DNA of 64,000 bases from positions 40,715 to 104,714 of the forward strand of contig JAGCDQ010000034.1 of assembly GCA_017651245.1 (NCBI GenBank), written 5' to 3'. The translations under genes and the position numbers were made by a program. This document shows, one piece after another, positions 12,398 to 33,794 of this stretch; the stretch's first letter is position 1, and each line of letters starts with the position of its first letter. The DNA is from Bacteroidaceae bacterium (GTDB lineage Bacteria > Bacteroidota > Bacteroidia > Bacteroidales > Bacteroidaceae). The notes under the pieces were generated by a model. It ran no database searches, had not been told where the DNA came from, and was given only the letters and a program-made list of their open reading frames with translations.

Positions 12398-12490
12398 AAA
12401 TTTTTTTATGATTATTTAGGAAAAAAGTTTCTTTTTCAGCCATTCACGCACAGCCGGTGACCATTAGCCTAAGCTGTTTTGATGAATTAT

Positions 12491-12538: not shown

Positions 12539-12585
12539 CAATGGATCATTGTATCGTAAGAAATGATTGAAACAGGGCTATAAGT

Positions 12586-13026: not shown

Positions 13027-13048
13027 TTTCCCAAAACTACCTCAACGA

Positions 13049-13249
13049 ATGAAACTCAAGAAACGAAAAATCAAGTATGCTGTTCTCTTTTTCCTCTGCT
13101 GGTTTGCCTTTTTAGTCTTTCTGGTGGATGGGGTGCTGAAATTCCAGACATTGGTTGACTATTTTGGCTCATACGCATTCGTGGAGATTGCGTTGTTGCT
13201 GTTGGTCATTCTCCCCACATGGGCAGTTTACAAATTGACAAAAGAATAA
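13049..13249 (+). CDS. Small two-helix membrane protein
   Basis: A 66-residue protein from the ATG at 13049: a strongly basic start (MKLKKRKIKY), a hydrophobic helix (VLFFLCWFAFLVFLV), a short loop, and a second helix (FVEIALLLLVILPTWAVY) ending in KLTKE. The longer upstream frame would overlap the PPC gene and is not used. No family recognised; its position right after the PPC gene suggests a shared transcript. Confidence 0.65.
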   Translation: MKLKKRKIKYAVLFFLCWFAFLVFLVDGVLKFQTLVDYFGSYAFVEIALLLLVILPTWAVYKLTKE

Positions 13250-13261
13250 AAAGAATCCGTT

Positions 13262-14035: not shown

Positions 14036-14040
14036 CGTTT

Positions 14041-14829
14041 CTAACTCAATAGCGGTATTGTAACACAATAGTCCTCAGGGGAATTGTTGATGACCACCTT
14101 TTGCGAGGTCAACAGACGGTAACGTTCAGCTATGTTATGCTGTCCCACGTTGGTGCTCTCAGCAGTCGTGATGGGTTGCTTTCGGTTGCTCACACTGATA
14201 CGTTGTTCCTCTGTGGTCACGTTGATGATGAGCGGACGTGCCTGCGTGTGCTCATTGTGCTTGATGGCGTTTTCTATGAGCATCTGCAGGACAGCTGGTG
14301 GCAGTTTGCCCTGTTTGGCGGACACCTCTGGTGCTATCCTTACTTGAATTCCCTCGCCAAAGCGTTGCTGCAGGAGTGCAAGATAACGGTCGAGGAATGC
14401 CAATTCTTCTTGTAGCGTCACCTTGTCGTGGTCGAGATGTGACAATGTGTAGCGATACACCTTCGAGAGGTTCATCAGATAGTCCGATGCCTGTTTGGGA
14501 TCAACTTCTATCAGGTCTGCCAAGATGCTGAAATTGTTGAACACGAAGTGCGGACTCAACTGGTTCTCCAGTGCCTGCAGACGGAACTTGTCGCGCTCCC
14601 GCTCTGTCTTTTCACGTGAGCGCCAGTAGTACAGCGTCACCAGCGTCGTCACCAAACATGTGGCGATATAGTCCATCAGCACCATCCATGATGTCCAGGG
14701 CCATCCGTATTGCCACATTTCCCTGAAATCTTCATCAAGGATCAGCCACACAGCGTAGTAGAACATCAGTCCCACTGCCGACAGCCCCAGTACCAGGAGC
14801 ACTCCCTGTATGATTCGTTTCAGTTTCAT
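14041..14829 (-). CDS. LytS/YehU-type sensor histidine kinase
   Basis: A short (262-residue) kinase with two membrane helices (about residues 8-30 and 48-68) and almost no extracytoplasmic sensor loop. The His_kinase PF06580 motif is ALENQLSPHFVFNNFSIL with phospho-acceptor His94, and the ATPase N-box is LIENAIKHNEH. It lies five bases upstream of its LytTR partner. A -7 box (TAACTTTG, - strand) ends only five bases before the ATG, so a transcript from it would be leaderless or nearly so; read-through from the barrel gene is the alternative source. Confidence 0.9.
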   Translation of the reverse strand: MKLKRIIQGVLLVLGLSAVGLMFYYAVWLILDEDFREMWQYGWPWTSWMVLMDYIATCLVTTLVTLYYWRSREKTERERDKFRLQALENQLSPHFVFNNFSILADLIEVDPKQASDYLMNLSKVYRYTLSHLDHDKVTLQEELAFLDRYLALLQQRFGEGIQVRIAPEVSAKQGKLPPAVLQMLIENAIKHNEHTQARPLIINVTTEEQRISVSNRKQPITTAESTNVGQHNIAERYRLLTSQKVVINNSPEDYCVTIPLLS

Positions 14830-14833
14830 GTGG

Positions 14834-14873
14834 CAAAGTTACAAATAATTTACTATTTGACAATTGACAATTT
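14834..14873 (-). promoter_or_regulatory. Near-leaderless promoter of kinase gene, with micro-repeat
   Basis: CAAAGTTA at 14834-14841 reads TAACTTTG on the - strand, immediately before the kinase ATG. The -33 region coincides with the micro-repeat TTGACAATTGACAA at 14857-14870. Confidence 0.55.
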
Positions 14874-14900
14874 ATGTTTTTTTATTTTGTCACCACTTCA

Positions 14901-17807: not shown

Positions 17808-17835
17808 AATTTTACCTTTTTGCTGAATTTTGCTG

Positions 17836-17843
17836 CAAAGGTA
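17836..17843 (-). promoter_or_regulatory. -7 box of barrel receptor gene
   Basis: CAAAGGTA on the + strand reads TACCTTTG on the - strand, 28 bases before the start codon. Confidence 0.65.
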
Positions 17844-17982
17844 CGCCCTCTATGCGCGAAATGAAAGAAGAAAGTGGGTGAAACGGGAAAAATCAAAGGT
17901 GAACTGTTTGTAAAGATGGTCATTCCATTCCCATAAGCAGTTTATAATTTTCCTTTTTTTTACCCCTTTTTTACCGCTTGAC

Positions 17983-18020
17983 TTTCAAAATATGCAAAAA
18001 TTGTTTCAAAATATGCAAAA
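17983..18020 (+). repeat. Direct repeat upstream of membrane-protein gene
   Basis: TTTCAAAATATGCAAAA occurs exactly at 17983-17999 and 18004-18020, a 21-base period equal to two helical turns, 49 bases before a -7 box. It may bind a regulator. The rest of the 325-base intergenic stretch 17808-18132 holds only the two promoters and T-rich runs. Confidence 0.55.
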
Positions 18021-18068
18021 TTTGGGGGGTGGAAAGCTTTTGATGTGTTATTGTTGTAAAAGTTTTAT

Positions 18069-18076
18069 TAACTTTG
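18069..18076 (+). promoter_or_regulatory. -7 box before membrane-protein gene
   Basis: TAACTTTG at 18069-18076, about 57 bases before the ATG at 18133; it excludes the longer frame beginning at 17992. Confidence 0.6.
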
Positions 18077-18132
18077 CGACTCAAGACCGTGAAAAAAAAT
18101 TTAATACAAATAACCCAAAACCTGAATCGCTA

Positions 18133-18681
18133 ATGCTAAGATTTAAGAAAAAGGCCAAGGTATTCGACATCGTGATCACCGCAGTCGGTGGCACGCTTTC
18201 AGTCGGCGTGATGATTTATGCCATTTTCCATTTCGGACTGAGCGAGTCGTGGCCCGAACTGGTGCTCAACCTTTTCTACATTGCCTGTCTGGCGATGATC
18301 TGGATGTACTTCTTCAACAAGCTTGACAGCCACCATTTCAACTACTGGTGTTCCATTTCCGTGGGCATGACGGTGCTGCTGCGCGACATCCTCTTTCCAC
18401 CCCCCTTGGCGTTTTTCTCCCTTCGCCTGACGTGCCTCATCCTCTCCGTGCTGTTGCTCTGCACGCTCACCTTCTTCTATGCACGGAAGGACTGGAGAAG
18501 CTACACCAAGCGCAACCTGTGGATTATTTGTATCATCGACATGGTCATTGCCTCCCTCTACAACTACGACCTCTACATAGAACCGATCAACGAATACACC
18601 AACTATCTGGTCACCGAAATCTGGATTCGTCCCACCATCACCTACGGGCTGGTGGCGTGTTTCGTGACGGAGAGGGAGTGA
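18133..18681 (+). CDS. Polytopic membrane protein of unknown function
   Basis: 182 residues beginning MLRFKKKAKVFD, chosen because the promoter lies downstream of the earlier in-frame ATG. Five or six hydrophobic helices are visible (VITAVGGTLSVGVMIYAIF; LVLNLFYIACLAMIWMYFF; WCSISVGMTVLLRDILF; FFSLRLTCLILSVLLLCTLTFFY; LWIICIIDMVIASLY; the last segment YGLVACFV), connected by short loops and ending in a charged tail. I do not recognise the family. It lies 59 bases upstream of the fimbrillin gene on the same strand, so it could be the first gene of that transcript. Confidence 0.65.
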   Translation: MLRFKKKAKVFDIVITAVGGTLSVGVMIYAIFHFGLSESWPELVLNLFYIACLAMIWMYFFNKLDSHHFNYWCSISVGMTVLLRDILFPPPLAFFSLRLTCLILSVLLLCTLTFFYARKDWRSYTKRNLWIICIIDMVIASLYNYDLYIEPINEYTNYLVTEIWIRPTITYGLVACFVTERE

Positions 18682-18740
18682 AGCGGGCGATGCCCTGAAC
18701 GAAAAATGAGAAATACAATAACAATCTAAAACTAATCATT

Positions 18741-19778
18741 ATGAAACAAATCTTAAACATTTTGCGAGGATGGTCGTGGCTGATGCTGCTGGCTCTCTTG
18801 GCTGGTTGTTCAAATGACAGCGATGAGCCAGAACCACCACAGCCAGAGAACCCTAAACAGTCATTCCCGTTAACCATTGAGGTAGAGGAGAACCCCATGA
18901 TTCCTGAGGGAGTAAGAAGTGTAGGTACAAGAGCTGCCATCACTACCACATCTTCGCTTGAAGCGTTCAATATGAGCTATGTGTATGGTACAGCAGAGCC
19001 AGGTTCCGTGTCAGCCTCGAAAAACGAAGAGGGGAAATGGAGCGGAGGAGACTGGCCTAATGATGCAGCGTTGAACAACTACAATGTTAATTGGTATGCC
19101 TATACAAGTTACACATCCGATACAGGTTCTGCTCAATTTGTGGGAAATGATGGTAATCCCTACATCGACTTTACGGTCGACGGGGATGTCGCAAATCAGC
19201 ATGATTTATTGGTGGCTCAAACCAGCGGTACCTACGCCGGAACTGGCGGTAACCTTAAGTTGACTTTTGACCATGTCTGCTCCGCATTGCGCTTGTTCAT
19301 CAAGAAATCGACAAACCTTAGTGCTTATACACTGAGCGTTAGCAACGTCACACTCTGCAATGTCGTTAAGCAAGGCTATTATTACTTCGGCACAGGGACG
19401 TGGACGCTGACCACGAGCCGCGCCAGCTACGACATTTATCCTGGTTCGGAGCCGCAGACACTGGGCTCTACAGACTACATACCCATGGACGGTGATCAGA
19501 GCAATAACGAGGCTACACATACCTACCTCTTCATGATTCCGCAGACGCTGACAGCATGGGATGGTACCACAGCCATTGCCTCTGCAACCGCACAAAGCTA
19601 CCTTGAGATTGAGTGTTCCATCACCAAAACAAGTGATAGCTCACCAGTTTATATTGGCACAGCTTATATCCCCTTCGCTGCCACTTTTTTGCAAGGTGTA
19701 CAACACGACGTGAAGATCAATATCGGCCAGAACTCGCTCTATAACAGTAATGGCACTAAAATCTTTAATAATAATTAA
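18741..19778 (+). CDS. Fimbrillin-family (Mfa/FimA-like) lipoprotein
   Basis: A lipoprotein signal with lipobox LLAGC begins MKQILNILRG, nearly the same peptide that starts the giant protein two genes downstream. The 345-residue body fits the Bacteroidales fimbrillin-like family (PF13149 type): a low-complexity DEPEPPQPENPKQ spacer, then HDLLVAQTSG and LTFDHVCSALRLFIKK, the hallmark strand pair, and a C-terminal YIPFAATFLQGVQHDVKINIG. Such proteins are pilus subunits or tips processed after lipidation by gingipain-like proteases. No Mfa2/FimB-type anchor gene is seen next to it; instead the peptide, giant protein, lipoprotein and DUF4421 genes follow. Confidence 0.85.
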   Translation: MKQILNILRGWSWLMLLALLAGCSNDSDEPEPPQPENPKQSFPLTIEVEENPMIPEGVRSVGTRAAITTTSSLEAFNMSYVYGTAEPGSVSASKNEEGKWSGGDWPNDAALNNYNVNWYAYTSYTSDTGSAQFVGNDGNPYIDFTVDGDVANQHDLLVAQTSGTYAGTGGNLKLTFDHVCSALRLFIKKSTNLSAYTLSVSNVTLCNVVKQGYYYFGTGTWTLTTSRASYDIYPGSEPQTLGSTDYIPMDGDQSNNEATHTYLFMIPQTLTAWDGTTAIASATAQSYLEIECSITKTSDSSPVYIGTAYIPFAATFLQGVQHDVKINIGQNSLYNSNGTKIFNNN

Positions 19779-19781
19779 GTT

Positions 19782-19928
19782 ATGAAGAAAACCTATATAC
19801 AACCCAAGATGAAAGCCGTTGCCTTAAAGGGTCCAAGCATGATGACAAGCGGCTCGTACACTGTGACCAAATTCAGAAGAAGTGATGACAAAAATAACTA
19901 TGACATCACCATTGGTGACAAAGACTAA
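19782..19928 (+). CDS. 48-residue peptide between fimbrillin and giant-protein genes
   Basis: An ATG three bases after the fimbrillin stop opens a 48-codon frame: MKKTYIQPKMKAVALKGPS, then MMTSGSYTVTK, then a hydrophilic end FRRSDDKNNYDITIGDKD. It has a basic N-terminus but no hydrophobic stretch long enough for a signal peptide. I recall many short Bacteroidales proteins starting MKKxYIxP with the same layout; they have no known function. Its tight placement inside the locus argues it is translated. It could be a regulator, a secreted peptide substrate, or a small structural subunit; none is shown. Confidence 0.6.
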   Translation: MKKTYIQPKMKAVALKGPSMMTSGSYTVTKFRRSDDKNNYDITIGDKD

Positions 19929-19963
19929 GAAGAATAGTTATATAATTTTTAATCTATAATATT

Positions 19964-22900
19964 ATGAAACAAACCTTAAACATTTTGCGAGGGCGGCCGT
20001 GGCTCGTGCTGCTGGCGCTTTTCGCTTGGATGCTGCCACAGAGGGCGGCGGCTGATGACGGTTACGACAGATACACCGATTTGTCGTACATGTACAACGT
20101 CTATGTGAGCGGTACGAACACCGTCACCATTACCGTGCCTTTATACGACATGGAGGGTGCTGACGCTTACATCATTGACGGTAACCTCTATGCCTCATGG
20201 GAAGGCCAAAGCGAGATTAATCTGTTTCACTGGGCGCTAAACAACAATAATAGCAGTATCGCCGGTGATGCAAGTACCTGTCCCGTCATGGTTTACTCTC
20301 AGGCTCCTGGCTACTTCAACTTGAAGTTGGGTAACACGAATGGTGTTGAAAGGCTGAACCCTCATGACTGGTCATCCAGAAAAGTTGCTCGCAACGATGA
20401 TGCATGCACCTTCGACATTTCTGCCGTTTGGGTGTTCCCCCAGGAGTTGCTAGGCAAGACCATCAAGTTGAGGTGGCATGTGCAGCGCGATGGTACAGGC
20501 CGTAATAAGGTATGGTTGGAGGAAAGCGCCGGACTCAAACAGCCCGACCCCATCACCCTGCCAGAGGCAAATGCTGTGACACCGCCCTTCATCAGCCTTG
20601 CAGTGCCGAGCAACGACAGCAAAGGTATGATTGAAGTGCCTTGGACGATGATTCCGGAGAAAATCAGCAAACTCCGCTATGAATATATCGACGCTAACAA
20701 CAGACTGGTCAGCAAGGATATGCCAGCCACCGCGAACAACGGTTCTATCAAGCTCAATGCCTACGAGCCTCACCGTAACTTCCGCATCATTGCCGACTAC
20801 TATGAGGCACAAACCATAGGCGACTATCTCATCAAGGACGCTGCGTCAGAGCCGCAGGACCTGGCAATGATTCATGCGCCCCACGGACTGACCGTCACCC
20901 CTTTGGGTGGCGCCACTTCGAAGGTGGAGGTGAAGTGGAACATTGGCAGCGTCACCGATGAGGATATCGCTGATATCGACTTCTTCGAGATTCAGCGCTC
21001 GCTGACGGGTAAGGAGGAAGACTTCGTCGGCATCGGTCAGGTACCATTCGCCCGTATCGGCGATGCTGCCCAGACGGTCTATACCTACGTTGACAGCACC
21101 TTTGTGGATGCCCTTGCCGAGCCAATGCTGACGGATGGCTATAACTTGGAGAACCTCACCTATCGCGTACGCCGCGCCATCACACAGAATTGGGGATGGG
21201 GGTTGGACAACCCCTGTGCCAGCACCGCCAAGTGCGTGTTGGACAACCTGCACCTGCTGCGCATTGCCAACTACTCGGCACAGTGGGAGGACAAGGATGC
21301 CTACACAGTCCGCGTGTCGTGGCAATATGCCGACGAGCCTAATGGCATGTGGGATGACCGCGCCAAGATGAAGATACACATCACCTCGACCAATCTGGCT
21401 GGCGAAGTGGTGGAAGAGAAGGACGTCGAACTGAATCAGGAAGATCGCGAACTGTGCTACAAGGTGATCGACCTCAGCCGTCCTTGTCTGAAGTATGACA
21501 TCAAACTATATGTGGACCGTAACAAATCGCCCCTCAACCTCTATGACGAGACCCAGATGAAGGACTACTACTTCCCCATCCGAAATGCAGCCGACTGGGA
21601 GACGTTCCGCAGCAAGGTGCAGGGTGCCAAGGGGCAGTACGACGTGAATGCTCGCCTTTATACCGATATCAACACTGGTATTGCTATTGGCTGGGAAAGC
21701 GACAGACCTTATCGTGGTATATTTGACGGCAACGGCCACACGCTGACCTTCAACATCAATAGTTCAGAACAATACGTCGCTCCTTTCCGACATGTCGGAA
21801 GTGCTACCATCAAAAATCTGCATGTGACAGGAACCATCAATACGACGGCTCAATATGCAGGCGGATTGGTTGGCTATATCTTTAACGAAAACAATGCCAC
21901 TATTGAGAACTGTCACTTGTCGATGACCATCAAGACTACGAACTATACCAATGGTGGATTCGTTTCCCGTCTGGGTGACAAGTCAAAAGTCGTATTGCGC
22001 AACTGTAAGTTCGATGGTTGCTTTGAGGGAGAACAAAGCCACCATAATGGCGGATTCATCGGCTATTGTCAGGCAAAGAGCTTTGCAATTATCGACAATA
22101 GTCTTTTTGCACCAGACCATATCAACACCAACGTTACAAGTTGCGAGACATGGGCACGAGGAACCTCTGATGCCACCATACATGTAATGAACAGCTATGC
22201 CACGATGGAGTATTCGTCGATGCTCACCATCCGCAATGCCAGCGATTGGCACAAGTTCGCCGTGATGGTGAATGAGGCATTGAACCAGTACGACGTGAAT
22301 GCCGTACTTGCTGCCGACATCACAATCAGTGAGCACGTGGGTGTAACCGAGGGAGCCATGTATCGTGGCACCTTCAACGGAAATGGCCATACGATAACTT
22401 TCAACAAGGAGTGGAAACCGACAACTGATGAAAGATTTATTGCTCTTTTCCGGCATGTAAGCAATGCCACCATCAAGAACTTGCATGTTGCAGGTACCAT
22501 CGAGTCTAACAGGATGTATCCTGCTGGTATCGTTGCACAAGTCAAAGATGGCACGGCAACCATCGAGAACTGCCAATCATCGGTCACCCTGAAGGGCACC
22601 ATGGATGGCGAAGGCACTCTCGCCGGTATCGTAGGACGCGTATCCAAATCCAAAGTTACGATACGCAACTGTAAGTTTGACGGAAGTTTTGAAGGTGATA
22701 AGTGCTATGGTAACGGTGGTTTCATCAGCTGGGTTGATGAAGGTAGCTCGGCAACCATCGATAACTGTCTCTTTACGCCTACGGCTATCAACACCAAGTT
22801 TGATAAGTGTAAGACGTGGGCACGTCAGGATAATAGTGGTAAAGTGACTGTTACTAACAGCTATGCCACCAAGGAGTATTCGGTATTCACCATCCGTAAC

Positions 22901-25900
22901 GCCGCCGATTGGGATACGTTCTGTGACATGATCAACACCTCAGACGGTCAGTATTACGTGGATGCCGACCTTGCCGCCGACATCAGTATTACGAAATCGG
23001 CTGCCGACAGCAGAATGTGGACTGGCACGTTCAACGGCAATGGTCATACTATCACCGTCAATATCGATGGCGGGAGAAATCAACACGTTGCCCTGTTCCG
23101 CTACACTAAAAACCATACCATCAAGAACCTGCACCTTAAAGGCACCATCAAGGGTGGACCTTACGTGGCGGGACTTGTAGGTGACACAAGGGGTGACTAT
23201 AATCACATTGAGAACTGCCGAGTATCAGCCACCTTAGAGTATGACTCTACTAGCGATGAAGAATATGCTGGTGGATTCGTCGGTGAAGGCTATGACCTAC
23301 CGCAGGTCATCACGAACTGCTTGTTCGATGGCTCAATCGCGGGTAATCGTCTTCATTATGCTGCTGCATTCATTGGCTGGCAAAGTTATTTTGGTAGACA
23401 AGTTAGTGGCAATGTGTTCAATAATAACCTTGAAAACGGATCGTCCTACCCCGCAGGCACTTCTTCTTATTCTCAGACTCTTGTAGGAATGAACTTTTAT
23501 CAAACTAGTTCTCTAGAGCCTAACTGGGCTAACGGACAATACGGTTCTAACAACTGGACGTACCACGCCGTAGATCGTCGTTCCGCCAGCGGTTCCATTG
23601 GTGTTACCGGATATGACTGCTGGACGGAAGCCTACCAGGTAGGTGACAAGTCGGCAAACGACTTGGTTGCCCAGTTGGGTACCGGCAACTGGAAGGTTGA
23701 CAGTGAAGGCAAGGTGGTGCCGAAGATGGAAGACTCCTATTCTACCAATGCCTGGTATAGTGGCAGCATCACGGCGAGTCAGCAGGTTGAAGCATTAGAC
23801 AAGGACAACTGGCATGTTGTTGATGGCAAGGCTGTGCCAAGGGCAAAGATAGCAGCGGAAATCACAGAGGAGGATGCTCTGGCGAACCTCGGTACGTGGA
23901 CAAAGGTCGGCGACACCATCGTGCCACCGACCACGACAGTAGCTGAGCCTAACTACGCAACCATCACACCGCCTACGCTGGACGACTTCTACCATTCAAG
24001 CACTGGTGTGATAGACGCTGAGCTGCTGGTGGAGCAACACCAGAGCAGCGTCGTGCTGACATGGAACACCGACGGCAACCCGATAGACTACTTCGTAGTG
24101 ATGCGCCGTGAGGTGGGACAAGGCGATGATGCATGGCAGGATGTATCGCCCAATATCGACCAGATGACCTACGAGGACAAGACTGTGTCGCCTCTGAAGA
24201 CCTATGAGTATAAGGTACGCGCGACAGCCGACTGTGAAGGGTCGCACCATACCTATACCAATGTGGTAGGTGGAGCATGTAAGAACACTGGTCGTCTGGA
24301 GGGCTACGTGCGCTTCAACGACGGTACAGGCATTGCCGGTGCAACGATAAACATCGTGGGCGGAAGCGTACAGACAAGTACTACCACCGACGAGAGCGGA
24401 CGCTACGTGGTTGATGAGCTGCCTTATCAGGGAGGAACAAGAATTACCTATGAGGTGACAGTCGGAAGTGGACTTGAAGCTGAGACACAGACGTACACTG
24501 CAACCTTCGATGACGAGATTAACGACGTTACGGTGCATGAGTTTACCGTTACCAACGGTAAGCGCTTCTCGGGCTATGTCACCTACGAGGGCACCAGCAT
24601 CCCCGTGAAGGGTGCCAACTTCATGGTGAACGGCAAGATGCTACATAACGCCACAGGCAAGTATGTGGAGACCGACGACGAGGGTGCTTTCTCGTTCCGT
24701 GTGAAACCAGGCGACAACACCATCCAGGTAGTCAAGGACGGTCACAAGTTCGTGAATAAGGGCTGGTATAAGGGACCTGGTGGTCATTATTTCACGGGCG
24801 ACGTGGCAGGCGTACAGTTCCAGGATTCTACTAAGGTGAAGCTGATTGGCCGCGTGGTTGGAGGTAACGACCAGGGCAAGCTGCCACTTGGCAACAACCT
24901 GTCGAAGAACAACCTGGGTGACAACCTGCAGATGGTACTCACCCTTGAGGGCGATAACAAGTCGTGGTTGGTTTATGACAACCTGAACCGTGAGCGCACC
25001 GAGCGCGACACCGTATATATGCATGTAGGCTCGGGCGGTCATAAGACGACGGTGAAGACCCAGCGTAAGCGCATGGAGGTGACCCCAGACCCGGCTACCG
25101 GCGAGTATGTTCTGATGCTGCCACCAGTGCGCTGGAAGGTACAGCAGGTTTATTGCACCGGCTATCCCACACTGTTCCAGGAGGGACAGGCAAGCGAGAT
25201 TGTCGACCTTACTAAGAGCCTCGTCCAGAAGGATACCACCTCTGTGGGTAGCTTCATGGATGTTGATGGAAATACCATCAGTAATCCTCATACAACATAT
25301 AACGCTATCTACAACCGAATCTATCGCAGCCCAATACAGCTGACATATAAGCAGCTGAGCTACGACGCGTTCGAGTACTTCGGTGACAAGAGCTATAACT
25401 CCCAGAACCTGAGTGGTGAGAGAGCCGTAGTGCCACTTGCCTACAAGAACCCAGCCGACACAACGAAGGCACTCTACACCTTCAACTATCCCGTGTTCAG
25501 TCTGGAGCGCAAATATAATATCCAGGTACAGGTGGCAGAGAGCTATCCGTACAATAACGACTATGCGAGCGAGAGAGTTGACTACGTGAAAGTGGGCGGT
25601 GGTGTAGCTACCATGCACAACGGCTTTAAGAACGGCGTGGCCGTGGATACGCTGCACTTGGATGACCAGGGACAGGCCGTCTTCATGCTGCAAGCCGACC
25701 ATGTATCGCAGCTGTTAGGTGTGGAGAACGCACTGAAGACTGTTACCTTCAGCGCGGAGCAGAATGGCAACCACTACACGGCAGAGCCCCTGCATGGCTA
25801 TGTGCTCAACATGTTCCCCATCGGAAAGGGTAAAGATCTGCTGGTTGAGGGTCAGCCTCTGCTCTTCGACATCCTGCGCGACCCACCAGGATCCTACAGC

Positions 25901-28900
25901 TCGGCGACACTCGCCAAGGGTGCTACCCTCAACAGTACATATATGATGAACATATCGATGGCTGGTGGTGTGGCGTTTAGCTTCACATTAGCAGACAAGC
26001 CAACGTGGTTCAATGGCAGTTTTGCTGGTGATGGCTGGGGTATGGTGCAAACTGTATTTGACGGTGGATTCTACGGCGTTGAGCACTCTGCGGAGAAAGT
26101 AGATGTATCATATACAGACCTTGTGTTCAACTATAATGGCAGCAAGGCATGGTCATACACGATGGCTATCGGTCAGAACATCAGCACCAGCGGTGACCCA
26201 TCGATGGTGGGTGCCGATGCTGACCTCTACATCGGTATGGTACAGAACGTACAGGTGACACCTATGTCCACCATCCGTGCCATCTCTGACGAGATGTATA
26301 ACACTATGCTGGCACGCTTAGGCGTAGGCCAGATAAACCCCACAGGTGAGATGACACAGTATGCCCAGTACGGCACACTGGCACACCTTGCCGAGGGTGT
26401 GGATGCCAATGGTAACAGGTTCCACCTGGTGCGCGACCAGTCGTTAGCTCACGGTCCGAAGATCAAGTCGAACTTCATCTACTCGCAGAAGCAGATACTC
26501 GACGATATTATTCCTGGCAAGGCCAAGGAAATCTTGGACTTGATGTTCACTGGTACTCGCGAAGAAGCAATACAGGTTGCCAACGCAAAGAATAAGCCTG
26601 TATATCTCTCGCTGCGTCTGCCTGATGATCCGAAGTTTGCCCTTAAGAACCGCTTATACAATACGGATAAATTCGTAGCAGACGACACTACCCACTATGC
26701 CATCATCCTGCCGGCAGGCAAGACAAAGAACGACTTCCCCGATGAGATCGCAGAGAAGAGTGAGATTATCTATGCATGGACAAAGATGATTGCCCAGAAC
26801 GAGCTTGAGAAACTCAATGCCACAGACCTGATTGGCAACTATGACATTGCTGGTGCACAGGGTATAAACTACAGCGAGACCTTCGACAGCAACTACTCGA
26901 ACTCCACATCGATGTACTTCCCATGGGGCAAACAGCCCGACTACTTCGCAGGCACGGGTAGTGGCATCGGTACGACGGCTGCTTCGACAATAGTAAATTA
27001 TGTGGGTGGTGCTCTCTTGGGTTACTTAGAGTACTTGAAGAAACTCGATCCGAGTGTCAACAAGGATGGCACGTCTATTGACAAGAGCACTGGAACCAAC
27101 TCATCTATCAAGTTTGATGGCTGGTACTTCCGCTGGGCCCTTCTGCCTGTGCTTACCTCACAGATCGTTGGTACCAACGGTGTGACCAATGCCTATAACC
27201 GCACGGAGAGCTTCACCATCGCTGCGGGTCCGACAAGCCGACTGAACGTGGATGTCTATCGTGTGCCGATGGCAAACGGTACCGTGATTATGAATGGTAA
27301 GAATCCAGACGATGAGTTTGGTAACTACGAATACAATGCCAAGAATGGTGTTGATCCGGAGGATATCTTCAGCAACTACAACTTCAATGGCTTGACATCC
27401 GACGCGGTTGCTTATCTCAAAGATAACACCAACGCACCTGACCATGGCGGACCATGCAGCTTCGTCTATCGCACCCGCGGTGGCCATACTGCCAACCCAT
27501 GGGAGGATCAGCGCAAGACCAAGTTCTGTCAGGTAGGTTCCATCCTTGACGAGCGTACGCTGAAGATAGACAACCCGACTATCAGCCTCGACAAGCACAG
27601 CGTGAGCGGTGTGTCAGTCAATGACGCAGTCCGCTTCACCGTATTCCTTGCCAATGAGAGCGAGAAGCCCGAGGCTACCAACGGTCTGAGCGCATATCAG
27701 TTGTTCTCTGTAGACCAGAAAAATCCTAACGGTGCTAAGCTGAGCGTGAACGGACAGACGCTGACCACCGCCGGTATGACCGTGAGCCTTGTGCCTGGCG
27801 TGACGACCCAGCTGCAGCTGGAGGTACGTCCCGGCAACGGCTTCGACTATGAGGGGTTGACCATCGGACTGATGTCGCCCACCGATGCCGAGCATGCCGT
27901 AGCAACCACCACGTTCGACGTACACTTCCTGCGTGAGGCTGGAGCGGTGAATATCTCTGTTCCTTCCGACAAGTGGGTGCTGAACACCAATGGGCAGCAG
28001 GACAGCGAGCGTGGATGGTACATACCTGTAACCATCAGCGGCTTCGACAGACATCAGCAAAACTTCGACCACATCGAGTTCCAGTATAAGGAGTCGCAAC
28101 GTGGCGATGATGCCTGGACTAACCTCTGCTCGTTCTATGCCGACTCTACACTCATGGCTAATGCCAACGGTGTATGCAAGCTGATGGGACCTAACGACAA
28201 TATCGTGACCGAGTTCTTCGGTGAGGGAACGGTGATAGAACGCACCTACGACCTGCGTGCCGTATTGTTCTGCAGCAACGGTGGTACGTTCCTCTCATCG
28301 CCGTCGAAGGTTATCAGTGGTATCAAGGACACACGTCGACCGCAGCTGTTCGGCACACCTGAGCCGAAGAGCGGACTGCTGACGCGCGGTGATAACATCA
28401 TATTCAACTTCTCAGAGGATATCGAATACAACAACCTCAGTGCCATCACCAACTTCGAGGTGAAGGGTGAGGTGAACAACAACGACCTATCTGAGACGGT
28501 GAGCCTGCAATTCACGGGTCAGGCTAGCATGGAGAGCGAGGCTAAACGCAACTTCAGCGGAAAGAATCTGACCATCGACATGAGAATCAAGCCTGACACT
28601 CTTGCCAGACGCGACATGCCGCTGTTCTCACATGGCACCAACGGACAGGAGCTGCAGCTGTGGCTGACCTCGGACTTCAAACTGAAGGCTGTGGTCAATG
28701 ATCAGACCTTCACGTCAGTAAGTGCTATCAAGCCGAATGCCTTCCGCCATGTCGGTCTCTGCATCGACCAGGCTAAGGGCAACCTGATGTTCTACTGTGA
28801 TGATCATGTTATCGGTGATGACAACAAACTGAAAGGTCAATACACTGGTACCGGTCCGCTCATCTTCGGTCGTACCAATGAGCTCAACCGTACTACAAGC

Positions 28901-31741
28901 GACTACTATTCTGGACGTATGATGGAGGCCCGTCTGTGGTATACCGCCATGGATATCGGACTGTTCAGCACCTATGGCTTGCATCGTCTGACGGGCTATG
29001 AGAAGGACCTCATAGACTACTACCCGATGAATGAGGGCTCAGGCGAGTTTGCCACCGACCTCACACAGGGTGCCAACGCCCGACTGATAGGTACCAACTG
29101 GGCAATGCCACATGGTATGTCACTGCGTCTGGAGAAGGAAGACAATGGATTGGAGATGACGCAGAATGCCCTGAGCTGTACCGACGATCAGGACTACACG
29201 CTGATGTTCTGGTTCAAGACCGATGCCGACGGACGCGGTACGTTGTTGAGCAACGGCAGCGGACTGAAGGATAACAGCGACAGCAAGAACCAGTTTAACA
29301 TTGGATTCGAGAACGACAAACTGATGTATCGCTCGAACGGCTTTGGTATCGAGGTACCGGGCAACTGGAGCGACAACCAGTGGCACCACTATACCATGAC
29401 GGTGAACCGCGCTCGCAACGTGGTGAACATCTACGTGGACAAGGAGCTGCGCGCAACGTTCGGAGCCGACAGCCTTGGCGGTATGGGCGGCAGGTCGTAC
29501 ATCGGTGTGACACCTGATGGTATCAGACCGCTGAAGGGTAACATTGACGAGCTGTTGTTGTTCGGTCAGGCTCTGCCTGTGCAACTCATCAGCACCTACG
29601 CTACGAAGAGTCCTAACGGTGATGAGGTGGGCTTGCAGACATACTTGGGCTTCGACCACCAGGAGCGCAATCAGCAGAACGAGATTGTCCTGACACCATA
29701 CGTCTACAGTAAGAGAATCTACCTGGATGCTAATCGCAATATACGCTATCAGGAAGATCCAGTGACGAAGGAGCCTACGAACATACCTGCACGCGACTAC
29801 CTCTTCACAGACAATATGGATAAGATCCTGGCACATATCGATGACGCACTGGCTGCTCCTGTGGTGCCTTATGAGGAGGTGACGAACCTGAAATTCTCGT
29901 TCATTGGAAGGGGCAACCAGATCATGATAGAGCTCGACGAGGCGGCTGCTAAGCTGAACCACCGTAACGTCTATGTGACGGTGCGCGACGTTGAGGATAG
30001 GAATGGTAACACGATGGCTTCGCCGCAGACAGCATACTACTACGTGACCAACGGTAGCCTGCAGTGGCTGGTGAACCGACTGGATTACACCATCAAGTAT
30101 GGTACGGGCGAGGATGCCGACCAGGTGCTGACACTGCCGTTCTACAACAACGGTGCGTCGAACCATACCTATACTATCGAGAACTGTCCAAGGTGGCTCA
30201 CGCTCAACAAGTATGGCGACGTGATAGCACCACAGACCTTAGATGGTGTTATGGCTACGGTTAGCAAGGACCTGAACATCGGTACGTACAACGAAATCCT
30301 CTACCTCATTGACGAGGAGGGTATCATCGAACCGTTCTACCTCAACCTGACCATCGAGGGCGAGCAGCCAGGCTGGTCACAGAGCGTCAACGGCGACCTG
30401 CTGGAGAACTCCATGAGCATCAGCGGAATGGTATATCTCTATGGCGAGCTGGATTCTGACGAGCGTGACATCGTGGGTGTCTTCGACAATGAGAACGTAT
30501 GTCATGGCTTCGCAAACATCAGTCGTGACCCGCAGACTGGCGATGTAGGTCTGTATCTGACCGTCTACGACAGCAAGGCGAACGGCAGACCGCTGAAATT
30601 CCGCTTGTGGCAGTATACCACAGGACGTGAAATCGTGCTGACCACTACTCCATCCATCGTCTTTAAGAAGGATGAGGTATTGGGTTCCGACCAACCCGTT
30701 CGCTTCGACGGCGGCGAGGCCTTCATACAGAACTTCAAGCTGCAGGAGGGCTGGAACTGGGTATCATTCAACGTCAAGAGCGACCAGCTGAATGACGTGA
30801 ACGAACTGCTCAGCAGCATGCGATGGAACGAAGGCGACATCCTGACAGACCTCGGCAGCGACATGACGCTGAACTATGAGGCTACGAAGAAGCAATGGAT
30901 AGCCTCGGGAAGCACGAAGAGCATGGCTATCTTACCGCAGAAGTCGTATGCTATCAAGGTGAAAGAGCCTTGCACCTTCCAGATTGGCGGTACCATCATC
31001 AAGGAAGAGAAAGAGCGTACCATCAAGGTAACGAAGGGCTGGAACGACATTGGCTACACGCCGATGGCCAACCTGACCGTGGAGGCGGCACTGAGCGACT
31101 ACTTTGACTATGCTGAGTCGGGCGACGTGATTAAGAGTCACACCGAGTTTGCTTACTTCACCAAGACGGGTAGCTCCGGACGCTGGCGTGGTAGCTTGCA
31201 GTACATGAAGCCTGGCGAGGGCTACATGTTGCTACGCAAGAACGCCTCGGATGCATCGTTCACCTATCCGTTCTACGAGTTGGGTAGCTACTTCTTCCGT
31301 GAGGAGCCGACGGCAGACATCACACCAAATGCCGCTCCGCGTCGTCGTAGCACGATGAGCGTGAGTGCCGTGATAGAAGGCTTCGAGGCTGAAACCGGTG
31401 ATGCCCTGATTGCTTACTCTAATGGCGAGGAGGTTGCCAATGTGATTGTTGGCTCGCAGTCGGATGATGTAAACTACCTGAGCATCGCTGGTGACAGTCA
31501 GGCACCAATCTGGTTCGCCATCGAGCGCGACGGCGAGATAGTGGCTACTACTGGTGAGGTGATGATGTTCAAGTCAAATGATGTCGTCGGTACTCCTGAC
31601 GAGCCGACAGCAATCAACTTCGCTCGTGCCGACTATGAGAAGGACGGCAAGTGGTATACCATCAGTGGTCTGCCGCTGCAGAAGAAGCCGACACTCAGAG
31701 GAGTCTATATCTTCAATGGTAAAAAACTAATAATCAAGTGA
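19964..31741 (+). CDS. Giant multidomain surface protein (3,925 residues)
   Basis: A signal peptide starting MKQTLNILRG (copy of the fimbrillin leader, but with no lipobox Cys; cleavage probably after RAAA) is followed by about 500 residues of beta-rich sequence. Residues ~539-1150 are three tandem modules of ~200 residues, each beginning IRNA(A/S)DW and containing GxFDGNGHT and IKNLHVxGTI strands, typical of GLUG/right-handed beta-helix surface proteins. Then come an Fn3-like segment (~1348-1430), two CarboxypepD_reg/Cna-B-like domains (~1443-1495 and ~1533-1598), a long unassigned core (~1600-2850), two LamG/concanavalin-like domains (~2855-3040 and ~3051-3215), a BACON-like domain (~3365-3466), and a module shared with the next gene (~3467-3590). 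The last ~45 residues (WYTISGLPLQ...RGVYIFNGKKLIIK) match the short T9SS sorting tail. Probably a cell-surface adhesin or matrix protein. No catalytic motif was recognised. The frame is intact throughout. Confidence 0.85.
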   Translation: MKQTLNILRGRPWLVLLALFAWMLPQRAAADDGYDRYTDLSYMYNVYVSGTNTVTITVPLYDMEGADAYIIDGNLYASWEGQSEINLFHWALNNNNSSIAGDASTCPVMVYSQAPGYFNLKLGNTNGVERLNPHDWSSRKVARNDDACTFDISAVWVFPQELLGKTIKLRWHVQRDGTGRNKVWLEESAGLKQPDPITLPEANAVTPPFISLAVPSNDSKGMIEVPWTMIPEKISKLRYEYIDANNRLVSKDMPATANNGSIKLNAYEPHRNFRIIADYYEAQTIGDYLIKDAASEPQDLAMIHAPHGLTVTPLGGATSKVEVKWNIGSVTDEDIADIDFFEIQRSLTGKEEDFVGIGQVPFARIGDAAQTVYTYVDSTFVDALAEPMLTDGYNLENLTYRVRRAITQNWGWGLDNPCASTAKCVLDNLHLLRIANYSAQWEDKDAYTVRVSWQYADEPNGMWDDRAKMKIHITSTNLAGEVVEEKDVELNQEDRELCYKVIDLSRPCLKYDIKLYVDRNKSPLNLYDETQMKDYYFPIRNAADWETFRSKVQGAKGQYDVNARLYTDINTGIAIGWESDRPYRGIFDGNGHTLTFNINSSEQYVAPFRHVGSATIKNLHVTGTINTTAQYAGGLVGYIFNENNATIENCHLSMTIKTTNYTNGGFVSRLGDKSKVVLRNCKFDGCFEGEQSHHNGGFIGYCQAKSFAIIDNSLFAPDHINTNVTSCETWARGTSDATIHVMNSYATMEYSSMLTIRNASDWHKFAVMVNEALNQYDVNAVLAADITISEHVGVTEGAMYRGTFNGNGHTITFNKEWKPTTDERFIALFRHVSNATIKNLHVAGTIESNRMYPAGIVAQVKDGTATIENCQSSVTLKGTMDGEGTLAGIVGRVSKSKVTIRNCKFDGSFEGDKCYGNGGFISWVDEGSSATIDNCLFTPTAINTKFDKCKTWARQDNSGKVTVTNSYATKEYSVFTIRNAADWDTFCDMINTSDGQYYVDADLAADISITKSAADSRMWTGTFNGNGHTITVNIDGGRNQHVALFRYTKNHTIKNLHLKGTIKGGPYVAGLVGDTRGDYNHIENCRVSATLEYDSTSDEEYAGGFVGEGYDLPQVITNCLFDGSIAGNRLHYAAAFIGWQSYFGRQVSGNVFNNNLENGSSYPAGTSSYSQTLVGMNFYQTSSLEPNWANGQYGSNNWTYHAVDRRSASGSIGVTGYDCWTEAYQVGDKSANDLVAQLGTGNWKVDSEGKVVPKMEDSYSTNAWYSGSITASQQVEALDKDNWHVVDGKAVPRAKIAAEITEEDALANLGTWTKVGDTIVPPTTTVAEPNYATITPPTLDDFYHSSTGVIDAELLVEQHQSSVVLTWNTDGNPIDYFVVMRREVGQGDDAWQDVSPNIDQMTYEDKTVSPLKTYEYKVRATADCEGSHHTYTNVVGGACKNTGRLEGYVRFNDGTGIAGATINIVGGSVQTSTTTDESGRYVVDELPYQGGTRITYEVTVGSGLEAETQTYTATFDDEINDVTVHEFTVTNGKRFSGYVTYEGTSIPVKGANFMVNGKMLHNATGKYVETDDEGAFSFRVKPGDNTIQVVKDGHKFVNKGWYKGPGGHYFTGDVAGVQFQDSTKVKLIGRVVGGNDQGKLPLGNNLSKNNLGDNLQMVLTLEGDNKSWLVYDNLNRERTERDTVYMHVGSGGHKTTVKTQRKRMEVTPDPATGEYVLMLPPVRWKVQQVYCTGYPTLFQEGQASEIVDLTKSLVQKDTTSVGSFMDVDGNTISNPHTTYNAIYNRIYRSPIQLTYKQLSYDAFEYFGDKSYNSQNLSGERAVVPLAYKNPADTTKALYTFNYPVFSLERKYNIQVQVAESYPYNNDYASERVDYVKVGGGVATMHNGFKNGVAVDTLHLDDQGQAVFMLQADHVSQLLGVENALKTVTFSAEQNGNHYTAEPLHGYVLNMFPIGKGKDLLVEGQPLLFDILRDPPGSYSSATLAKGATLNSTYMMNISMAGGVAFSFTLADKPTWFNGSFAGDGWGMVQTVFDGGFYGVEHSAEKVDVSYTDLVFNYNGSKAWSYTMAIGQNISTSGDPSMVGADADLYIGMVQNVQVTPMSTIRAISDEMYNTMLARLGVGQINPTGEMTQYAQYGTLAHLAEGVDANGNRFHLVRDQSLAHGPKIKSNFIYSQKQILDDIIPGKAKEILDLMFTGTREEAIQVANAKNKPVYLSLRLPDDPKFALKNRLYNTDKFVADDTTHYAIILPAGKTKNDFPDEIAEKSEIIYAWTKMIAQNELEKLNATDLIGNYDIAGAQGINYSETFDSNYSNSTSMYFPWGKQPDYFAGTGSGIGTTAASTIVNYVGGALLGYLEYLKKLDPSVNKDGTSIDKSTGTNSSIKFDGWYFRWALLPVLTSQIVGTNGVTNAYNRTESFTIAAGPTSRLNVDVYRVPMANGTVIMNGKNPDDEFGNYEYNAKNGVDPEDIFSNYNFNGLTSDAVAYLKDNTNAPDHGGPCSFVYRTRGGHTANPWEDQRKTKFCQVGSILDERTLKIDNPTISLDKHSVSGVSVNDAVRFTVFLANESEKPEATNGLSAYQLFSVDQKNPNGAKLSVNGQTLTTAGMTVSLVPGVTTQLQLEVRPGNGFDYEGLTIGLMSPTDAEHAVATTTFDVHFLREAGAVNISVPSDKWVLNTNGQQDSERGWYIPVTISGFDRHQQNFDHIEFQYKESQRGDDAWTNLCSFYADSTLMANANGVCKLMGPNDNIVTEFFGEGTVIERTYDLRAVLFCSNGGTFLSSPSKVISGIKDTRRPQLFGTPEPKSGLLTRGDNIIFNFSEDIEYNNLSAITNFEVKGEVNNNDLSETVSLQFTGQASMESEAKRNFSGKNLTIDMRIKPDTLARRDMPLFSHGTNGQELQLWLTSDFKLKAVVNDQTFTSVSAIKPNAFRHVGLCIDQAKGNLMFYCDDHVIGDDNKLKGQYTGTGPLIFGRTNELNRTTSDYYSGRMMEARLWYTAMDIGLFSTYGLHRLTGYEKDLIDYYPMNEGSGEFATDLTQGANARLIGTNWAMPHGMSLRLEKEDNGLEMTQNALSCTDDQDYTLMFWFKTDADGRGTLLSNGSGLKDNSDSKNQFNIGFENDKLMYRSNGFGIEVPGNWSDNQWHHYTMTVNRARNVVNIYVDKELRATFGADSLGGMGGRSYIGVTPDGIRPLKGNIDELLLFGQALPVQLISTYATKSPNGDEVGLQTYLGFDHQERNQQNEIVLTPYVYSKRIYLDANRNIRYQEDPVTKEPTNIPARDYLFTDNMDKILAHIDDALAAPVVPYEEVTNLKFSFIGRGNQIMIELDEAAAKLNHRNVYVTVRDVEDRNGNTMASPQTAYYYVTNGSLQWLVNRLDYTIKYGTGEDADQVLTLPFYNNGASNHTYTIENCPRWLTLNKYGDVIAPQTLDGVMATVSKDLNIGTYNEILYLIDEEGIIEPFYLNLTIEGEQPGWSQSVNGDLLENSMSISGMVYLYGELDSDERDIVGVFDNENVCHGFANISRDPQTGDVGLYLTVYDSKANGRPLKFRLWQYTTGREIVLTTTPSIVFKKDEVLGSDQPVRFDGGEAFIQNFKLQEGWNWVSFNVKSDQLNDVNELLSSMRWNEGDILTDLGSDMTLNYEATKKQWIASGSTKSMAILPQKSYAIKVKEPCTFQIGGTIIKEEKERTIKVTKGWNDIGYTPMANLTVEAALSDYFDYAESGDVIKSHTEFAYFTKTGSSGRWRGSLQYMKPGEGYMLLRKNASDASFTYPFYELGSYFFREEPTADITPNAAPRRRSTMSVSAVIEGFEAETGDALIAYSNGEEVANVIVGSQSDDVNYLSIAGDSQAPIWFAIERDGEIVATTGEVMMFKSNDVVGTPDEPTAINFARADYEKDGKWYTISGLPLQKKPTLRGVYIFNGKKLIIK

Positions 31742-31742
31742 T

Positions 31743-32531
31743 ATGAAAAAGACAAAGTTAATATTCGTTCTGCTGGCAAGCCTCGTATTGGGGGCTTGCG
31801 GCAGCAGCAGCGACGATGATGGTGGTAACAACAGCGGCAAGAATGCTGCCTATACGGAGACCTCACTCAGTGAGGCTCCCGTGTGGCAGATCGACTGGAA
31901 CAACAACCAGGGACGTCCCAACTGGTCTAATCAGGACATCTCGCAAGACTATGGTAACTTTACCATACTGAAAGTGCAGTTGGAGGATGCCCTGAGACCC
32001 TACGTCTCCGAAGATGACATGCTGGCGCTCTTCATTGATGGTGAGCTGCGCGGACTGACTCATCCGGCTGTCATCGTTGGCAGTGATGAGATGTTGGATG
32101 ATGGTAAGTTCGTGATGAAGGCATGGGGTGACGAGTCGGCATCGGAAACCGTGACCATGTCACTGCAATATTATAGTCAGACCCTGAAGCACATCTTTAC
32201 GCTGACAGGCGACATCACCTTAGACCCTGACGAGACCACTGGTATCGACGAGGACTATATCCCTGAATTCACACTCGGCTCTGCCAAGTACCCTGTGATG
32301 AAGTCGGTGATGGTGGAGAGTATCCTTAACAAGGTAGGTATCATACCCGTCAGTGGCAACACGCTGGCAGCCTTCGTCGGCAGCGAGTGTCGTGGTACGA
32401 CTACGCTGTCGGTCAATGGTGGTACGTCGCTGCTTATCTTCGGTCGTAACACTGGCGAGTCGGTGACGTTGAAGTACTTTGATACCGCAACGATGACGTT
32501 GTATACAATCCCCGATATTGTGAAACTGTAG
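31743..32531 (+). CDS. Lipoprotein sharing a module with the giant protein
   Basis: Starts one base after the giant gene's stop, so the two are translationally close. A lipoprotein signal (LVLGAC, then GSSSDDDGG) is followed by two similar halves: DDMLALFIDGELRGLTHP in the first and GNTLAAFVGSECRGTTTL in the second. Both resemble ERDIVGVFDNENVCHGFA near residue 3,490 of the giant protein (pattern: D-hydrophobic-A/G-hydrophobic-F-x2-x-E/N-x-C/R-G). The shared fold suggests assembly with, or anchoring of, the giant protein; that is an inference. No named family recognised. Confidence 0.65.
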   Translation: MKKTKLIFVLLASLVLGACGSSSDDDGGNNSGKNAAYTETSLSEAPVWQIDWNNNQGRPNWSNQDISQDYGNFTILKVQLEDALRPYVSEDDMLALFIDGELRGLTHPAVIVGSDEMLDDGKFVMKAWGDESASETVTMSLQYYSQTLKHIFTLTGDITLDPDETTGIDEDYIPEFTLGSAKYPVMKSVMVESILNKVGIIPVSGNTLAAFVGSECRGTTTLSVNGGTSLLIFGRNTGESVTLKYFDTATMTLYTIPDIVKL

Positions 32532-32552
32532 TAACTCAAGAAACTAAATACT

Positions 32553-33794
32553 ATGAAACGAAAACTTGTAATCAGTCTGTGTGCTCTACTCATGTCTTCT
32601 GCTGCAATGGCGCAAGAGGGTAGTGCCTCGGTTAGTCTTATCGATCGTGTGAAGAAATATGCTGATGCCAGTGAGGTGCACGGCGTGGACACCAACTATA
32701 TAAAGGTTCCTGATCGTCCTTGGCAGGTAAGCGTCAAAAGCCGTGTGGCACAGACAGACCTACAGATGCACTCCAGCGTAGACGGAGGCGAACTGCTCGA
32801 CGGACAGGGTATGATGCCGTTGATAATGGGTGTTGGCGACATGGCAACAAGCCCTCGTATCAGGACACGCGTGTCCACGGCGATGGGTGTGAAGGTTGGA
32901 TATAAGGGTATCAGTGTAGGCTACTCCTTCCCTGTCAGCGGTGACAAGGAACAGAACTTCACCTTCGAGACCACGGGCAACCGATACAGCGTCAACCTGC
33001 GCTGGCATAAGTTCAAGACTGATGAGGCAAAGGTACGATACGCTGGAGCGGCAAAGGTAAGATGGTTGGAGAGTTTTGACGAGGAAACGGGAGATGTTGC
33101 CTTCACCGACTGGTCAGAGCCTATATCATGGTCGGAAACATATAAGGAAAAGTTTGCTTCACCTGTCACTATCCAAACCTTGATATTCGATGGCTTCTAC
33201 ATTTTCAACCACAGGAAGTTCTCCTACGCGGCAGCCTACAACCAAGAGACCGTCCAAGTGCGCTCTGCCGGCTCTCCCATCGCAGGAGTGATGGGCTACT
33301 ATGCTGACTTCAAATACAACGAAGATCGCAATGCCGATCTCATCTATGCGATGGACAACATCGGACGCTTGCGTCATTACCAGTTAGGGGTGGGGGCTGG
33401 ATATGCATACAATTACGTACCAGCTAAGGGATGGCTCATACATGGTATGGTCATGCCAATGTTGACGCTTCTGAACCGTACGAAAGTTAATACATACAAA
33501 AGCAACTTCAAGGACGTGTCACAATATCACCTCTTGGAGTTGGTTTTGTCGGAAGAGGAAGATGCTGAATATCCTGATGTCTCAGACGAGTATAAGATAG
33601 AAAGCACAGGAGCGAACTCACATAGCAATCGCCTGGCTCTCAACTATACCGCTCGCGCTTCCGTCACGTACAACTGGGATCGTTATTTTGTTAATGTCAA
33701 CGGACAGTTCAATAACTTCAACTATAGGCATAATGCCATGCACGGACACCTGAACGACTGGTATGTCAATGCGTCGGTGGGTGTTAGGTTCTAA
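32553..33794 (+). CDS. DUF4421-like outer-membrane barrel protein
   Basis: A signal peptide (SSAAMAQE) precedes 390 residues of alternating beta strands ending in an aromatic C-terminal residue (VNASVGVRF), the signature of an outer-membrane barrel. The motif VDTNYIKVPDRPWQVSV near the N-terminus is characteristic of DUF4421, a Bacteroidales family of unknown function. It is 21 bases downstream of the lipoprotein gene and is the last gene of the fimbrillin/giant-protein locus. A channel, anchor or export role for the locus is possible but not shown. Confidence 0.75.
   Translation: MKRKLVISLCALLMSSAAMAQEGSASVSLIDRVKKYADASEVHGVDTNYIKVPDRPWQVSVKSRVAQTDLQMHSSVDGGELLDGQGMMPLIMGVGDMATSPRIRTRVSTAMGVKVGYKGISVGYSFPVSGDKEQNFTFETTGNRYSVNLRWHKFKTDEAKVRYAGAAKVRWLESFDEETGDVAFTDWSEPISWSETYKEKFASPVTIQTLIFDGFYIFNHRKFSYAAAYNQETVQVRSAGSPIAGVMGYYADFKYNEDRNADLIYAMDNIGRLRHYQLGVGAGYAYNYVPAKGWLIHGMVMPMLTLLNRTKVNTYKSNFKDVSQYHLLELVLSEEEDAEYPDVSDEYKIESTGANSHSNRLALNYTARASVTYNWDRYFVNVNGQFNNFNYRHNAMHGHLNDWYVNASVGVRF

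Follow-up and report, generated by a model that had tools for sequence, protein, structure and literature searches.

A giant probable type IX secretion cargo and its module-sharing lipoprotein neighbour in Bacteroidaceae: a candidate two-partner surface adhesin

In SprB-SprF and other pairs of a type B adhesin and its shuttle, a gene for an adhesin exported by the type IX secretion system (T9SS) is followed by a gene for surface retention (PMC12618676 and PMC9143113), and in Mfa1 fimbriae a fimbrillin-family lipoprotein goes together with a large T9SS cargo, Mfa5, whose gene is transcribed on its own (passages of PMC5954841). The short C-terminal domains (CTDs) of Prevotella intermedia, as described in parts of PMC11969387, are 43-55 residues long, follow a PT/GI cleavage consensus and hold a conserved Tyr and Gly in motif B, a basic residue and GxY followed by Ile; their binding to PorV has been modelled there. 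Surface lipoproteins of Bacteroidota show an acidic stretch directly after the lipidated Cys, SDDDD being the export signal reported for those of B. fragilis (passages of PMC5080379). Here we compare with these systems a locus in a 64,000-nucleotide stretch from the genome of a gut bacterium of the Bacteroidaceae (the window; GCA_017651245.1, contig JAGCDQ010000034.1, positions 40,715 to 104,714 of the forward strand), where five same-strand open reading frames (ORFs), all intact, encode a fimbrillin-like lipoprotein, a short peptide, a giant protein, a second lipoprotein and a protein of family DUF4421. An earlier note on this DNA had placed the five correctly, with gaps of 3, 35, 1 and 21 bases; it had also taken them for one coherent locus, which did not survive comparison with relatives, in which parts come and go and only the giant and the lipoprotein behind it are kept.

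Far relatives of the giant have a partner with a type B CTD followed by a PorP/SprF gene, as in SprB-SprF; unlike there, the giant's tail is type A-like, the second gene (the partner) carries a type B, lipid, type A or dockerin signal, and the third gene of the window belongs to DUF4421. As with Mfa1 and Mfa5, a fimbrillin-family lipoprotein stands beside a large probable T9SS cargo, which here has 3925 residues; Pfam finds no Mfa2-4-like genes, and the fimbrillin is optional. The tail of the giant shares with the P. intermedia domains a length of 43 residues, the cleavage site (PT/AI here, PT/GI there), GxY then Ile and basic residues, whereas the match is by eye and not by a curated model, and the passages of PMC11969387 are silent on partner genes. 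The acidic signal of other surface lipoproteins recurs in the window's second lipoprotein, where, in contrast, it precedes two copies of a module that the giant also has. The giant-partner pair is not described in the titles, abstract starts and passages that our literature search covered, and it points to an undescribed kind of surface adhesin.

The giant and its module-sharing neighbour

The pair comprises the following features.

19964-31741, + strand: the giant, a probable T9SS cargo of 3925 residues
24731-27733, + strand: conserved core of the giant (residues 1590-2590)
30353-30715, + strand: shared module, copy G1 (giant residues 3464-3584)
31334-31630, + strand: shared module, copy G2 (giant residues 3791-3889)
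31610-31738, + strand: short type A-like T9SS tail, 43 residues after a PT/AI site, by eye
31743-32531, + strand: the lipoprotein, steady partner of the giant, 262 residues; two tandem copies of the shared module, acidic residues after the Cys

To find near relatives, contigs were scanned with the core (residues 1590-2590; alignment A1), and the best 79 of 315 matches were taken; together with the window these make 80 loci, and 72 remained after eight with a contig end directly behind the giant had been dropped (they include near-duplicates and same-genome cases and are not independent). At the window the core-bearing giant is directly followed, on the same strand, by a gene with the shared module, and the lipoprotein family follows the giant on the same strand in 71 of the 72 loci (window included; the exception is L091). 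In six of the 71 the lipoprotein ORF was at first uncalled, yet its whole frame is present. In the nearest relative, L056, where the giant is 79.5% identical at the nucleotide level, only the giant and the lipoprotein are seen. Judged from its recurrence in these sequences, the conserved unit is the giant-lipoprotein pair and not the set of five genes. Against L056 the giant has a pairwise dN/dS of 0.14 and the lipoprotein one of 0.23, which indicates purifying selection on both, although all such ratios given here are rough, several dS values being above 1.

One near locus, L082, has a mosaic appearance: the upstream flank of the window (8477-18803) is matched there at 98.4%, but from the 3' end of its giant onward, through lipoprotein and downstream flank, it matches a second locus of the window's genome (L036) at 83-91%. 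This reflects either rearrangement at giant loci or mis-assembly.

The two genes share a module, as the earlier note had suspected. Profile-profile comparison resolves the lipoprotein into two tandem copies of one module (P 9.6e-11) and finds the module twice towards the C-terminal end of the giant (P 8.6e-7). Across the two proteins, the first copies match each other with P 4.3e-8. Ten column-shuffled controls of the first comparison gave P of at least 0.16, and the stretch between the giant's two copies gave P 0.41 to 0.79. No Pfam family was found over cut-off for the lipoprotein or for the peptide, and a profile search of the PDB gave weak matches only (E 0.05 to 0.9) for the lipoprotein and for the giant's C-terminal region. 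The AlphaFold2 model of the lipoprotein (predicted local distance difference test score (pLDDT) 86.9, predicted template-modelling score (pTM) 0.78; residues 1-31 poorly modelled) has two beta domains with a similar order of elements. Foldseek with this model returned no match at E <= 0.001, and its list consisted mostly of immunoglobulin (Ig) pairs and other beta-sandwich proteins: basal pilin EbpB stood at the top (E 0.013), and a biofilm-protein domain (7c7u) had the best probability among the first ranks (0.94; template-modelling score (TM) 0.23 on the query). On the strength of the model, the shared module looks Ig-like.

In the window's lipoprotein a lipobox (GAC) is followed by GSSSDDDG, with acidic residues after the Cys. 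An alignment of 54 of the 60 distinct near partners (A5; four dockerin-bearing and two near-duplicate sequences left out) has a lipobox-like site in all 54, and 49 of them carry at least two acidic residues within the eight positions that follow the Cys. Of the five that fall short, four were read by the script from an earlier Cys, and the fifth has one acidic residue. A dockerin-like repeat end without lipobox occurs in 4 of 65 near partners (L080, L083, L121 and L127), and Pfam confirmed Dockerin_1 in L080 and L083, the two scanned.

From N to C terminus the giant is made up of three F(D/N)GNGHT-type repeats (one with the Glug match), CPDR domains, the core, a LamG region and the C-terminal modules. 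Pfam found two Laminin_G_3 and two CarboxypepD_reg domains and one Glug stretch, which bears out the LamG and carboxypeptidase-regulatory-like parts of the domain list in the earlier note; FN3 appeared below cut-off only, and neither BACON, also listed there, nor a von Willebrand domain was reported by the scan. The core matches no Pfam family past its first residues, and its most conserved stretches have no sequence relative in a profile search of the PDB. In its AlphaFold2 model the first 360 residues are better modelled and mostly beta strands, and the second half consists of long predicted strands of low confidence. A structure search with it gave four matches at E <= 0.001 (alpha-2-macroglobulins, TEP1 and an S-layer protein); their TM on the query was at most 0.10, and no fold was assigned from them.

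Behind its PT/AI site the last 43 residues of the giant contain a WYTISG segment, basic residues, RGVYI and a lysine-rich end, in agreement by eye with the short-CTD motifs given in the passages of PMC11969387. The type B CTD model (TIGR04131) does not match the giant of the window, and the type A domain TIGR04183 scores over cut-off in two far homologues (L152 and L153). The window's genome encodes T9SS machinery (PorV, E 8.3e-150; GldM, E 3.6e-168). The giant is thus likely a T9SS cargo with a short type A-like tail.

Far relatives and the anchors of their partners

Of 393 genomes from the order, 34 matched a broader alignment of the core, as did 11 of 395 from the phylum; the window's genome counts in both. 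We examined 32 far loci from 31 genomes, beside three others, L152-L154 (genomes G477, G559, G613, G667, G761, G815, G186, G218 and G251, which also had matches, were left out of this set). The next gene on the same strand bears the module in 22 of the 32: in 20 of the 24 loci at core E <= 4e-56, which come from other genera, nearly all within the same order, and in 2 of 8 weaker ones. Among called ORFs of at least 80 residues in these loci, the module profiles (E<0.01) match only the giants and the gene or genes right behind them.

The partners differ in how they end or begin. Eight carry a type B CTD over cut-off (L153, L198, L199, L202, L203, L204, L208 and L213), and behind seven of these, L213 being the exception, the third gene belongs to the PorP/SprF family over cut-off; a PorP/SprF gene is next in line behind none of 13 other partners (Fisher 6.9e-5; L205, L221 and L222, masked, cut or unclear, were left out of the count). 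A type A CTD scores over cut-off on the partners of L207, L210, L214 and L215, below cut-off only in L206 and not at all in L216, and a lipobox was seen by eye in L152, L193, L194, L195, L197, L200 and L201. At L153 a giant with TIGR04183 is followed by a partner with TIGR04131 and a third gene with TIGR03519, so that a type B protein adjoins a type A giant; the scan for giant tail types covered loci other than L198-L208. As read from these predicted signals, the partner's anchor signal is exchanged between lineages.

Optional genes around the pair

The remaining features of the locus are as follows.

18741-19778, + strand: fimbrillin-like lipoprotein (Mfa_like_1), 345 residues; lipobox by eye, acidic residues after the Cys; optional part
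18741-18806, + strand: signal-peptide segment of the fimbrillin gene, 55 of 66 nucleotides identical to the giant's start (19964-20029)
19782-19928, + strand: peptide of the MKKxYxxP family, 48 residues
32553-33794, + strand: DUF4421 protein, 413 residues; optional part
17992-18681, + strand: upstream gene with membrane-like segments by eye; its homologues begin near 18130

The first gene is a pilus-type lipoprotein, as had been proposed: Pfam assigns it to Mfa_like_1 (PF13149, E 1.3e-13), and a lipobox is visible by eye. The view that its companions are other than Mfa2/FimB-type anchors also held, genes 2 and 4 having no Pfam family and genes 3 and 5 belonging to others. Counting the window, 5 of 55 loci have a fimbrillin upstream of the giant (L077 a weaker match); in 4 of 64 loci with room one comes directly behind the lipoprotein. 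Searched with the window's fimbrillin (P0001), 61 genomes gave nine matches at E <= 1e-5 in eight genomes, and all nine lie beside giant-lipoprotein loci; at G034:C31 a fimbrillin stands at the start of a shortened giant. The window's order, fimbrillin and peptide before the giant, is found in L063, L077, L078 and L132, other loci read giant-lipoprotein-fimbrillin, and L078 is a tandem array with both orders. In L060 and L082 the upstream gene and the giant's start align through the upstream gene into the signal peptide of the window's fimbrillin. Because of these alignments and the identity of 55 of 66 nucleotides between the two starts, we infer that the fimbrillin and peptide genes arrived as a block at the 5' end of the giant gene, whose signal-peptide segment this block took over or copied. 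Pairwise dN/dS of the fimbrillin was 0.21 against L063 and 0.30 against L132. Taken by its distribution among the sequences compared, the fimbrillin with its peptide is a second, optional pair.

A small ORF begins 2-29 bases behind the fimbrillin in 13 of 14 cases with room (L055 is without one; in L150 the called start is internal, and the full peptide overlaps the fimbrillin stop). Position alone says little, since an ORF of 30-110 residues within 80 nucleotides also stands behind 249 of 695 other long ORFs; a K..Y..P start, on the other hand, was seen by eye in 12 of the 13 peptides (not L133) against 3 of the 695. Across 25 genomes of the same genus, the window's included, there are 120 occurrences of the start pattern ATGAARAARNNNTAYNNNNNNCC, against four of the reversed control. 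Seven matches of the window's genome and one in each of 29 others were examined (loci L157-L192), and 29 of these 36 are peptides of 30-120 residues. Directly ahead of 19 of the 29 is an ORF with a T9SS-like tail, as against 10 of 287 background ORFs, from which giants and their C-terminal relatives were excluded (Fisher 2e-16); the tail rule is a regular expression and not a curated model, and also flags the upstream gene of the window, which is no T9SS tail. None of six family members scored over cut-off in NCBIfam. Synonymous sites of the window's peptide are saturated against its relatives, and two pairs among the relatives gave dN/dS of 0.21 and 0.59. Co-translation or regulation with the cargo would be guesses; that MKKxYxxP peptides are mostly encoded behind T9SS-cargo-like genes is a side finding.

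Gene 5, called a barrel in the earlier note, is a DUF4421 protein (E 8.9e-43) and putatively an outer-membrane barrel. It matches no NCBIfam family over cut-off and thus is not a PorP/SprF barrel by that measure, and as a candidate relative of PorP/SprF or PorV it gave no convincing profile match (hhalign P 0.014 and 0.023). Of 64 loci with room, 7, the window among them, have a DUF4421 gene directly behind the lipoprotein; the six among the other 63 far exceed a rate of five genes per genome over 2400 genes (P 5e-9, for loci that are related and a gene count that is an assumption). Among 16 close homologues (at least 60% identity, 61 genomes), six lie within such a cluster: in one case (G019:C33) the DUF4421 gene is preceded by a lipoprotein and a giant-sized ORF that lacks the core, and in another (G000:C3) one extra gene intervenes. 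The stretches around nine of the other ten contain neither a giant nor a lipoprotein (G010:C32 was not covered). Pairwise dN/dS was 0.15 against L075, and a literature search on DUF4421 found no paper. By the loci compared, the putative barrel is optional and not specific to the giant; it also occurs elsewhere.

Some single loci were recorded beside these counts. In L137 the gene directly behind porN of a T9SS operon encodes a close DUF4421 homologue, and in L047 a single small gene separates the giant-lipoprotein pair from a gene of the porP family and one called porK-like on resemblance alone, with GldM about 5 kb further on the same contig. A tie to the T9SS operon was not counted, these two being single cases and L139 being linked by resemblance of start residues only. 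At L146 a short ORF resembling a lipoprotein and a close homologue of DUF4421 come after a giant-sized ORF of 3476 residues (4489-14919), which lies opposite an antisense ORF of 3503 residues (4884-15395); the core search found no match in that genome.

The upstream gene, which is conserved, precedes the giant in 13 of 55 loci (counting the window) and has no Pfam family. No terminator-like site on the + strand was found in the four intergenic gaps of the cluster. The pattern TTTG-N17-22-TANNTTTG, which is presumably the Bacteroidales promoter consensus, occurs 11 times in the window where 0.99 would be expected; no match lies on the + strand between 5926 and 33886, and the next one, at 33886, is just ahead of the following gene (AA_kinase family). 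Elsewhere in the window, 6025-8478 encodes an 817-residue C10 peptidase that carries a Spi inhibitor domain as well as a T9SS-like tail.

A docking model and its alternatives

We consider it somewhat probable that the giant is a T9SS-exported adhesin which docks, through the shared modules, on an obligate surface partner; export route, surface display, docking contact and adhesive function are all proposed from comparison of sequences. The giant would be exported by Sec and then cross the outer membrane through the T9SS, where it would probably be handled by PorV, cut, and joined to lipopolysaccharide (LPS) at its short type A tail. The partner would be displayed on the surface by its own anchor, at the window a lipid anchor with an acidic export signal, and would hold the giant's base by like-with-like contacts between modules, so that the repeat-rich N-terminal part could reach out and bind a target. 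The fimbrillin-peptide pair and the DUF4421 barrel would be optional additions. From the earlier note's picture of an exported adhesive with its own anchor and barrel, the likely T9SS cargo and its steady lipoprotein neighbour remain, and the barrel becomes an option.

Several points weigh against this docking model: i) interaction, localisation and binding are themselves proposals; ii) the tail that the earlier note had assigned to the T9SS is matched by no NCBIfam model; iii) the other comparisons between copies of the two proteins are weaker (second lipoprotein copy against G1, P 2e-4, and against G2, P 5.9e-5; first lipoprotein copy against G2, P 0.0018); iv) the model of the core is poor as a whole (pLDDT 66.5, pTM 0.40), with no fold assigned; v) ten of the 32 far loci have no detectable partner beside the giant, and outside the order (L216-L222) a partner is present in 3 of 7 only; and vi) the module may be a general surface module, co-located for reasons besides contact.

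This last point leads to a reading that we regard as unlikely, in which giant and lipoprotein act independently and the module is a common building block of Bacteroidota surfaces. It would fit an Ig-like module whose model finds mostly Ig pairs and beta-sandwich proteins and nothing at E <= 0.001, and a short tail that would alone anchor the giant to LPS if it works as in P. intermedia (passages of PMC11969387). It sits badly with a pairing that is near-invariant among near loci (71 of 72) and recurs in other genera with different anchors, and with the restriction of the module to giants and the gene or genes behind them in the 32 far loci. Quite improbable, to our mind, is a mixed pilus in which the fimbrillin polymerises, the giant is a T9SS-exported tip adhesin and the lipoprotein is the base. 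Mfa5, a T9SS-exported protein of the tip complex of a fimbrillin pilus (passages of PMC5954841), offers a precedent for it, and the nine matches of the fimbrillin subfamily all adjoin giant-lipoprotein loci; most giant loci, however, have no fimbrillin beside the pair, and Pfam reports neither an Mfa2-4-like gene in the cluster nor a von Willebrand domain in the giant.

The lipoprotein and the barrel might instead be accessory export factors that help a large cargo leave the T9SS, rather than surface anchors, which we judge very improbable. A barrel gene in third position also occurs in seven far loci, there of the PorP/SprF family, and the surroundings of the pair in L047 and of the DUF4421 homologue in L137 would agree with such a role. 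Against it, 57 of 64 near loci have no barrel gene next after the lipoprotein, PorP/SprF goes with a type B tail on the partner, and DUF4421 has no convincing profile match to PorP or PorV.

An extension of the docking model to a whole class is tentative, and we stop short of calling it probable: two-partner T9SS adhesins would occur across the order and more thinly in the phylum, a giant type A cargo docking through one shared module on a separately exported partner whose anchor is swapped (lipid, type A, type B with PorP/SprF, or dockerin) with the module kept, and in the window's lineage a fimbrillin and a T9SS-cargo-linked peptide would have been recruited. Many record titles among the 79 near loci name ruminant samples (others name none), and because of this we guess that the giant's target could be plant fibre or other rumen microbes. 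If docking is true, Bacteroidota would fix very large T9SS cargo at a chosen place, and not by the cargo's tail alone, and the module together with a swapped anchor would be a sequence marker by which such adhesins could be found.

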